The position numbers and the translations under genes were made by a program. Shown here piece by piece: positions 14,046 to 16,571 of a DNA stretch of 64,000 nt. The stretch is from Brachymonas denitrificans (GTDB lineage Bacteria > Pseudomonadota > Gammaproteobacteria > Burkholderiales > Burkholderiaceae_C). A model generated the notes under the pieces. The model was given only the letters and a program-made list of their open reading frames with translations, was not told the origin of the DNA and ran no database searches. Numbering within the stretch: position 1 is the stretch's first letter; the number at the start of each line of letters is the position of its first letter. The DNA is taken from the NCBI RefSeq assembly GCF_907163135.1, contig NZ_CAJQUA010000001.1:2185001-2249000 (forward strand), written 5' to 3'.

Positions 14046-14067
14046 ACCGATTGACATCCGAGTAGCC

Positions 14068-14075
14068 GGCGTATC
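14068..14075. repeat. Left 8-bp target-site duplication of the IS66 element
   Basis: The sequence GGCGTATC directly abuts the left inverted repeat and recurs at 16560-16567 directly outside the right inverted repeat. Eight base pairs is the duplication length established for IS66-family elements. The left copy lies 22 nt into the interrupted spacer. Confidence 0.92.
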
Positions 14076-14127
14076 GTAAGCGCGCGGTGATCCCATGTTG
14101 ACCGCCACCGGCGGACGTGGCTGAGAC

Positions 14128-15687
14128 TTAGATGGCGCCTGGTTGCCAGCGGTGCGGCAAGAGTTCGTCGATGCGACTGGCTTTGTGCGTGTGCAGCCGC
14201 GTGAGCACTTCCTTGAGGTAGGCATACGGGTCGTGCCCGTTCATGCGCGCCGACTGGATCAGGCTCATGACGGCGGCGGCCCGCTGGCCCGCGCGCAAAC
14301 TACCGGCAAACAGCCAGTTGTTGCGACCGACGGCAATGGGCCGGATCTGGTTCTCGATCCAGTTGTTGTCCACGGGCAGTTGTCCGTCACCCACGAATCG
14401 GGTCAGCGCATCCCATCTTCGCAGGCTGTAGTCCAGCGCCTTGGCGGTTGCCGATCCGTCGGGCACCTGTCGCCGTTGCAGTGTCATCCACTCGTGCAGG
14501 GCATCCAGGATGGGCCTTGTCTGCTGCTGTCGAACGATTTGCCGTTGTTCGGCGCCCAGATCCTTGACCTCGCGCTCGATGTCATAGACCCGGGCGAACT
14601 GTTGCAGGGCGAGCTCGGCGATCTGGCTCTGGTTGGCCGCGTGCAGATCGTAGAACTTGCGCCGGGCATGCGCCAGGCAACCCACCTCGGTCACGCCGCT
14701 GGCGATCAGGGCCTTGTAGCCACTGAAGTCGTCGCAGGTCAGACTTCCCTTCCAGGCCTTGTCGGTGCCATGGCCCAGGAAGCGCCGGGCATGCTCGCCC
14801 GAGCGAGACTCGCAGAAGTCGTAGACCACGGCCTTGATGTCTTCAAACGCCCCCGGCGCATAGGCCCAGAGGTAGGCGCGGTGCGTCTTGCCATCACCGG
14901 GCTTGAGCATGGCCACCGGAGTCTCATCGGCGTGCAGCACCCGGTGGCTGAGGATCTCGTCCTTCAAGGCATCGACCAGCGGCTGCAACCGCACGCCGCA
15001 GGTGCCTACCCATTGCGCCAGGGTCGAGCGCGGGATGGCCAGGCCGGCGCGGCCGAAGATCGCCTCCTGCCGGTACAGCGGCAGGTGATCGGCGTACTTG
15101 CCCACCAGCACCTGGGCCAGCAGGCCGGCGGTGGGGATGCCTTTGTCGATGACGTGCGCGTCGACCGGCGCCTGTTGAATGCTCTGGCACTGGGCGCATG
15201 CCCACTTGCCGCGGATGTGGCGTTCGACGCTGAACACGCCAGGCACGTAGTCCAGCTTCTCAGCCACGTCCTCCCCGATGCGTTTCATCTGGCAGCCACA
15301 CGAGCAGGTGGTGGACGCGGGCTCGTGGCGGATCTCGCGACGTGGCAGGTGGGCGGGCAGTGGCAAGCGCTTGGCTTGTTTCTTCTCGGGGGTAGTCGGC
15401 GTTTGCGCCTGCGACAGCCCGTCGATCTCGCTGGCCACGGCCGCCAGGTCCGCTTCGATCTCGTCGTCGAGCAGGCTCTTCTGCTCAGGGCTGAAGCGCT
15501 CTGACTGGGCGGCGAACTTCATGCGCTTCAAGAGCGCGTTCTCGTGCGTGAGCTTGTCGATGAGGGTCTGCTTGAAGGCCAGTTCCTGGTCCTTGGCAGC
15601 AGCGGCTTGCAGCATGGACAGCAGCGCCGAGCGCAGTTGCTCGGGACTCAGACTATCAAGGGATTGCGGCTCGACCACCATGGGCAT
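14128..15687 (-). CDS. tnpC: IS66 family transposase TnpC
   Basis: DDE transposase of the IS66 element. From the ATG at 15687 the product has 519 residues starting MPMVVEPQSLDSL; an in-frame alternative start at 15804 would add 39 residues that overlap tnpB. The N-terminal part has a leucine-rich coiled coil (about 10-60). A zinc-finger-like CSCGCQ and CAQCQ region follows, then the catalytic domain with HADETPVAML and CDDFSGYKAL. The C-terminal IS66 signature NNWIENQIRPIAVGRNNWLF is present in blocks near the end. No frameshift is seen. Confidence 0.95.
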   Translation of the reverse strand: MPMVVEPQSLDSLSPEQLRSALLSMLQAAAAKDQELAFKQTLIDKLTHENALLKRMKFAAQSERFSPEQKSLLDDEIEADLAAVASEIDGLSQAQTPTTPEKKQAKRLPLPAHLPRREIRHEPASTTCSCGCQMKRIGEDVAEKLDYVPGVFSVERHIRGKWACAQCQSIQQAPVDAHVIDKGIPTAGLLAQVLVGKYADHLPLYRQEAIFGRAGLAIPRSTLAQWVGTCGVRLQPLVDALKDEILSHRVLHADETPVAMLKPGDGKTHRAYLWAYAPGAFEDIKAVVYDFCESRSGEHARRFLGHGTDKAWKGSLTCDDFSGYKALIASGVTEVGCLAHARRKFYDLHAANQSQIAELALQQFARVYDIEREVKDLGAEQRQIVRQQQTRPILDALHEWMTLQRRQVPDGSATAKALDYSLRRWDALTRFVGDGQLPVDNNWIENQIRPIAVGRNNWLFAGSLRAGQRAAAVMSLIQSARMNGHDPYAYLKEVLTRLHTHKASRIDELLPHRWQPGAI

Positions 15688-15761
15688 GACTGTGCCAGCG
15701 CCGGCAACGCCACGCCATTGGCACATGCACCGATTGGCAGGCAGCAGGCCTGCGATCAGAT

Positions 15762-16094
15762 TCAGAGCATGGTGATGACGCCACCATCGCCCAGGCGCTG
15801 CCAAGGCAACCCGAGCACCAGAGCGTCGAACTGCGAGCGGCTGAGATTGGCGATCAATGCCCCCTCACGCGGCCAGACGAATTTGCCGCTATTCAGGCGC
15901 CGCGCCGCCAGCCACACACCAATACCATCGTGCACCAGAACCTTCATGCGGTTGGCTCTCCGGTTGGCAAACAGGTAGGCGTGATGCGGGCGTGCAGCAC
16001 CGAAGACCGCCACCACGCGGGCCAGAGCCGATTCCGTTCCGGCGCGCATGTCCAGCGGCTCGGTGGCCAGCCAAAGGGCATCAATACGGATCAT
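15762..16094 (-). CDS. tnpB: IS66 accessory protein TnpB
   Basis: Small accessory protein encoded by IS66-family elements and needed for their transposition. The 110-residue product has the family core LDMRAGTESALARVV, AYLFANRRANRMKVLVHDG and the LNSGKFVWPRE segment. Its start overlaps the 3' end of tnpA by 4 bp (16091-16094), the usual coupled arrangement. It precedes tnpC on the same strand. Confidence 0.95.
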   Translation of the reverse strand: MIRIDALWLATEPLDMRAGTESALARVVAVFGAARPHHAYLFANRRANRMKVLVHDGIGVWLAARRLNSGKFVWPREGALIANLSRSQFDALVLGLPWQRLGDGGVITML

Positions 16095-16492
16095 CGCAGC
16101 AACTCACGCAGTGCCTGGGCGCATTGAGCAGCCACCGTCACCGGCCAGGTAATCGTGATGGTGGCGCCGGTACGCTGCAGTTCGATACGAATGAACTCGC
16201 CCTCCGCGCCCGAGGCAGCCCCTGCCGTCTGAGCAACGCGAACATCGCTGACGCCCGTCGGAACAGGTAGGGCAACGAAGGCCGGCGGTTGCTGCTGGAC
16301 GTGTGTACCCGTCAAGCGCTCTTCGCGTAACCAGCGGTGCACCATATTCGGGTGCAGGCCGTGACTCAAGGCTACACCGGCCACAGATGCACCCGGCCCA
16401 CGGGTTTGAGCCAACACCAGCGCCTTGAAATCAGCGCTGTACTCGCGCCGCAGTCGGCGCTGTCCATCGATCAATCGTTCCATCGTCCCCAC
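16091..16492 (-). CDS. tnpA: IS66 accessory protein TnpA (helix-turn-helix)
   Basis: First gene of the IS66 element, 133 residues. The N-terminal helix-turn-helix region (about 14-60) reads RREYSADFKALVLAQ, then VAGVALSHGLHPNMVHRWLRE, as in IS66 and IS3-type OrfA proteins. It probably binds the element ends or cooperates with TnpB and TnpC. The start lies about 70 bp inside the right end of the element, leaving room for its promoter. Confidence 0.93.
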   Translation of the reverse strand: MGTMERLIDGQRRLRREYSADFKALVLAQTRGPGASVAGVALSHGLHPNMVHRWLREERLTGTHVQQQPPAFVALPVPTGVSDVRVAQTAGAASGAEGEFIRIELQRTGATITITWPVTVAAQCAQALRELLR

Positions 16493-16559
16493 GATCTCCT
16501 TCGTGGGGACGATCGTCGATTACCGTCCTCGACTCAAGATGGGTTCACCGAACGCATAC

Positions 16560-16567
16560 GGCGTATC
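16560..16567. repeat. Right 8-bp target-site duplication of the IS66 element
   Basis: GGCGTATC again, directly after the right inverted repeat. It is followed by only four bases (GCAT) before the next CRISPR repeat at 16572. These four bases are the remaining end of the interrupted spacer. Confidence 0.92.
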
Positions 16568-16571
16568 GCAT

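Follow-up and report, generated by a model that had tools for sequence, protein, structure and literature searches.

The stretch of Brachymonas DNA analysed here (64,000 nucleotides; hereafter the window) carries a CRISPR array in which two neighbouring perfect repeats are separated by 2526 nt (14046-16571). The question raised by this locus is whether a transposable element has split a single spacer there, and, if so, what the insertion means for the array and whether the array was more than a chance target. We addressed it from the structure of the insertion site, from the surrounding array and cas locus, and from the array of a second genome, that of B. denitrificans DSM 15123.

An IS66-family element within a single spacer

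The 2526 nt constitute one split spacer among the 64 spacers of the array, number 60 when counted from the leader. The repeat at 14014-14045 abuts it on the left, and the next repeat begins at 16572. An earlier sequence-only reading had placed an IS66-family element at 14076-16559, with an 8-bp duplication on each side, between a repeat ending at 14045 and another starting at 16572; these coordinates were found to be exact to the base. The duplication, GGCGTATC, is present at 14068-14075 and at 16560-16567. At fixed element ends, a perfect 8-bp match would have a chance of 4^-8 = 1.5e-5. The leader-distal 30 nt of spacer 60 (14046-14075, minus strand) include the first copy, and the other piece (16560-16571, minus strand) consists of the second copy and the leader-proximal 4 nt.

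Spacer 60 was rebuilt by joining the flanks after removal of the element and one copy of the duplication. The rebuilt spacer was 34 nt long, as previously calculated, and this ordinary length is the commonest in the array, shared by 21 of the 63 intact spacers. The intact spacers range from 33 to 42 nt (33 nt, 8 spacers; 34 nt, 21; 35 nt, 20; 36 nt, 6; 37 nt, 5; 38 nt, 2; 42 nt, 1). The element and its duplication lie wholly within the spacer, and both bordering repeats are perfect, in agreement with the claim that the insertion had spared them. This sparing is unremarkable: of 4210 insertion points, 1753 (42%, computed over 63 of the 64 spacers) would place the 8-bp duplication entirely inside a spacer, which is close to a coin toss.

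The element is complete, 2484 bp long and on the minus strand, with the ends GTAAGCG and CGCATAC. Its three genes, all on the minus strand and all without an internal stop, are tnpC (14128-15804), tnpB (15762-16094; Pfam PF05717, 3e-26) and tnpA of the HTH_Tnp_1 type (16091-16492; PF01527, 2.5e-07). TnpC is a DDE transposase with leucine-zipper, zinc-finger and C-terminal IS66 domains (PF03050, 8.5e-101; PF13817, PF13005 and PF13007). The DDE_Tnp_IS66 domain of TnpC and the presence of the accessory TnpA and TnpB place the element in the IS66 family, whose inverted repeats start with GTAA or similar and whose target duplication is 8 bp. The inverted repeats of the element, starting GTAAGCG and GTATGCG, are identical at 21 of 30 bases. 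The boundaries of the element are not arbitrary, since a relative from a different family genome shares these ends but is flanked there by another 8-bp duplication, AGAGCAGA, present twice.

In its own genome, the element was the only DNA match to itself found among the 40 of 128 first-look candidates that were scored. A search of this genome for the IS66 transposase family gave one strong match, that of the element. Two further matches, identical to each other and scoring 27.4 bits against a cut-off of 23.1 bits, lie on the second contig, and we take them to be IS6-like genes. On this contig (43,296 bp), the two identical IS6-like-looking transposase genes flank other genes in the stretch 5000-20000; presumably these encode macrolide resistance (an ABC-F protein and a phosphotransferase) and an efflux pump with a TetR-type regulator.

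The structure might be suspected to be an artefact of assembly, with the element wrongly placed into an array that had been collapsed or misjoined. Both arrays and IS copies are well known to cause misassembly, and the assembly of B. denitrificans DSM 15123 does break within its array. A false join is nevertheless unlikely at this site, because the window sits in a 2.71-Mb contig of a genome that consists of two contigs (2.75 Mb). As the genome yielded one copy of the element, a misjoin from one IS copy to another is also unlikely, the duplication is perfect, and the rebuilt spacer has the commonest length. We therefore give an artefact hardly any weight.

The CRISPR array and the type I-C cas locus

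The repeat, GTTTCAATCCACGCGCCCGCACGGGGCGCGAC, is present in 64 perfect copies between 13811 and 20544. The leader-side part of the array (16572-20544, minus strand) contains 60 perfect repeats and 59 spacers. On the other side of the element, the four oldest spacers (61-64), interspersed with three perfect repeats, occupy 13774-14013 (minus strand) and are separated from the leader by the insertion; the repeat at 14014-14045 is the fourth perfect repeat on this side and borders spacer 61. The array ends in a degenerate leader-distal terminal repeat with 8 mismatches (13742-13773, minus strand).

To the right of the array lie the presumed leader, assigned by its position between cas2 and the array (20545-20721, minus strand), and the cas genes, all on the minus strand: cas2 (20722-21018; PF09827, 9.9e-23), cas1 (21022-22059), cas4 (22063-22683), cas7 (22693-23583), cas8c (23604-25421), cas5c (25418-26092) and cas3 (26206-28476). 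The last six are open frames identified by Pfam and by PADLOC (as Cas1c, Cas4c, Cas7c, Cas8c, Cas5c and Cas3c, respectively). The operon is complete and of subtype I-C, with Cas8c, Cas5c, Cas7c and Cas3 in addition to Cas4, Cas1 and Cas2. On the basis of this layout, with the presumed leader followed by the minus-strand cas genes on the right, the array was taken to be transcribed leftwards and to be oldest at its left end. The array next to the cas genes is regular, and on the transcribed strand its repeat ends in GAAAC, which is the end motif of type I-C repeats.

The origin of the spacers was also examined. For spacer 60, no exact match to a protospacer was present in viral contigs, nor in three codon-degenerate readings; phage records gave nothing beyond one 22-nt match (E = 4), and the only match in the window genome was to the larger part of spacer 60 itself. 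The leader-side array gave one weak match to phage records. It lies in MT838203.1 (a faecal record, 'Bacteriophage sp.'; 3352-3788), consists of two pieces that together span some 300 nt of the query (72% identity), and may reflect an array with similar repeats in that record. Two spacers of the array (18741-18775 and 20214-20247) have a 33-nt core in common; they differ by an additional base at one end and by the identity of a base at the other. One site seems to have been captured twice; the core had no exact match in viral contigs. The longest spacer, of 42 nt (16604-16645), lies directly on the leader side of spacer 60. Because of this length, which equals 34 + 8 nt, it was checked for the duplication of an excised element, and no 8-nt tandem duplication with at least 6 of 8 matching positions was present in it.

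Ungapped comparison of 63 spacers (62 intact ones and the joined one, leaving out the spacer beside the degenerate repeat) gave no match with fewer than 12 mismatches to the element and none with fewer than 10 mismatches to the rest of the window. Since no compared spacer matches the element, self-defence against it plays no visible part here.

Expected effect and age of the insertion

It is almost certain that an intact IS66-family element transposed into spacer 60 of a complete type I-C locus, duplicating 8 bp of the spacer. The position and ends of the element, its duplication, the open transposase and cas genes and the perfect neighbouring repeats were all read directly. Ordinary IS66 transposition explains this structure.

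The crRNA of spacer 60 would be lost, because its parts (12 and 30 nt, of which 8 nt are duplicated) are now 2.5 kb apart. The 59 leader-side spacers would be expected to go on working. The four oldest spacers, 61-64, would need read-through of the element. Since the element and the array are read in the same direction, the array transcript could enter tnpABC and pass on into these spacers. A scan of 13700-16700 gave no promoter-like site and one terminator-like site (plus strand), no more than in shuffled sequences, so it has no bearing on read-through. One spacer, and at most five, would be affected. The insertion, which lies towards the old end of the array, is most likely tolerated and near-neutral.

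In CRISPR adaptation, new spacers generally enter next to the leader. Since the leader is at the right end, the insertion can be dated only to after the acquisition of spacer 60. The claim that the element is younger than the surrounding array accordingly holds for spacer 60 and, by order, for the four older spacers. It is too strong for the 59 leader-side spacers, which could have been gained before or after the insertion.

A broken IS66 end in the array of B. denitrificans DSM 15123

The repeat is present in two of nine genomes of the genus, our own included. The second is that of B. denitrificans DSM 15123 (NZ_FOCW01000001.1), which was treated as a sister species and which alone among eight congeners has a Cas8c, 91% identical to that of the window. 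Its contig starts inside the array and contains six repeats. The leader-side part of this array is absent from the contigs read, and the comparison of spacers therefore covers the assembled leader-distal part. None of the five assembled leader-distal spacers of DSM 15123 is shared with the window, and the longest word in common is 10 nt (these five spacers and one stub against 63 of the 64 spacers of the window). An empty site with the 34-nt spacer was not found among the nine genomes of the genus, taken as one genome per species, of which DSM 15123 is the only other one with the repeat.

The end of the DSM 15123 array (locus L003, 337-505) consists of the last repeat, a 15-nt spacer stub and an IS66 end that runs into the start of tnpA, with no array beyond. 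The IS66 end is broken off after roughly 120-145 bp, and its orientation is as in the window, with the tnpA end towards the leader. From this stub to the next conserved gene, the sequence aligns poorly with the flank in the window. Such a structure would be the expected remnant of an insertion after which all older spacers and the remainder of the element were deleted. Scoring of 37 of the 172 first-look candidates in that genome gave no match to the element other than the stub. A congener without the repeat has a weak match of 154 bp to the element (71%; G001:C8:52180-52333).

It is conceivable that the stub and the window element descend from one ancestral insertion, in which case the event in the window would be old. 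Over 116 bp the two are 86% identical, as is a neighbouring chromosomal gene (86% over 304 bp), and both genomes have the same orientation. The leader-side spacer pieces, 15 nt in DSM 15123 (GGGAATGCGAGATCG) and 12 nt in the window (ATGCGATACGCC), have the 6-nt word ATGCGA in common; a word of this kind was shared by 1.4% of 20,000 random stub pairs of these lengths with equal base frequencies. Outside ATGCGA, however, the two pieces differ, and recombination from repeat to repeat would be unable to swap a piece that lies between a repeat and the element. Moreover, the stub is closer to copies elsewhere, on an Azospira plasmid (90.5%) and in two further family genomes (91%), than to the window element, and the end of the window element is likewise closer to the Azospira copy (91%) than to the stub. 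We consider a single ancestral insertion unlikely. Because the stub is nearer to other elements than to that of the window, it probably represents a second, independent hit, after which the tail of the array was lost; this sequence comparison has the 116 bp as its short basis.

Chance target or preferred landing site

One may ask whether the Brachymonas array attracts this IS66 group as a preferred landing site. IS66 DNA is present inside the array in both Brachymonas genomes that have it, and neither genome yielded another match to the element among the candidates scored. The window array without the element occupies only about 4.2 kb of 2.75 Mb. This pattern was, however, noticed after the fact, and the wider searches point the other way. 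Among 399 genomes of the family, our own included, Cas8c is present in 52 and related IS66 DNA (counted at E <= 1e-100) in 64, yet a junction of repeat and IS66 was found in two, both Brachymonas. Beside related IS66 copies, no array-like set of repeats was present in the 24 loci examined (L056-L079), which cover up to 1.5 kb beside each match; several of these loci end at contig ends, and many of the matches fail to extend to both element ends, so that part of the examined flank is the element itself. Other tandem repeats occur at three of them (L062, L067 and L072). The repeat end motif was found in 29 of 79 loci examined, all from the window genome or B. denitrificans.

A scan of 84,980 species, restricted to a single form of the IS66 end and to repeats that end in ATTGAAAC, gave five junction matches. 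Four of them were outside arrays by reading, and the fifth was B. denitrificans. Missed junctions are to be expected, because only exact motifs of the repeat and of the element end fit the patterns and because draft assemblies are interrupted at sites of this kind. A general hotspot is not supported by the junction count, by the 24 array-free loci or by the species scan, and a special preference for the array appears very improbable. The evidence speaks for chance and tolerance rather than for a general hotspot.

A related possibility is that elements of the IS66 group hit the Brachymonas I-C array at least twice independently, in spacers, in the same orientation and at or towards the oldest end. 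The position is towards this end in the window and at the present oldest end in DSM 15123, where everything beyond has been lost. The array might then be a tolerated sink for insertion sequences, which prune old memories. We put this forward tentatively, as a possible but rather doubtful reading.

Relation to published insertions

The earlier reading had regarded spacers as rarely reported targets of transposons. This could not be upheld, since cases have been published in X. citri, M. tuberculosis and Haloquadratum. The CRISPR system of X. citri is of type I-C and the M. tuberculosis locus of type III-A, and IS6110 is an IS3-family element. In X. citri pv. citri LG097, an ISRso19-like (IS21 family) element lies within spacer Xcc_18, a single array spacer as in the window, and in other strains within a repeat (PMC6889575, PMC9504256). 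For LG097, 4 bp of the spacer are reported missing at the insertion (PMC6889575, PMC9504256). The IS21-family element has several copies per genome (PMC9504256), in contrast to the one IS66 copy found here. In M. tuberculosis, IS6110 insertions are described in both spacers and repeats of the CRISPR locus, and IS-bordered losses of array segments are comparable to the DSM 15123 stub (PMC7708916). These deletions are ascribed to recombination, either of two IS copies with each other or of repeats (PMC7708916); DSM 15123, by contrast, gave one IS66 match.

In Haloquadratum walsbyi HBSQ001, the MITE HqIRS37 was found in a spacer, and the ancestral spacer was rebuilt by removing the insert, the same procedure as used here, and matched to a target (PMC3119063). 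HqIRS37 is non-autonomous and its archaeal host has lost its cas genes (PMC3119063); in the window, the cas genes are present and the target was not found. Insertion of IS elements into cas genes is reported to inactivate CRISPR-Cas systems (PMC10359306). These are likewise cases of IS damage to a CRISPR-Cas locus; here, not the system but at most five spacers would be affected. In the part of the literature covered, no published IS66 element in a CRISPR spacer was found.

Implications

The insertion is real and was correctly read. As transposons in spacers are already known, it is mostly ordinary, and the general picture of CRISPR and of IS66 is unchanged by it. It does provide a clean, fully readable case in which a transposon has split one CRISPR spacer. 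Spacers at sites of this kind can escape array-finding programs, as has been reported for CRISPRCasFinder (PMC9504256). What is new here is the DSM 15123 array that ends in a 15-nt spacer stub and a broken IS66 end, and the main value of the finding lies in the pairing of the window with this genome. The pair points to a way in which CRISPR arrays could be shortened at their old end by insertion sequences.
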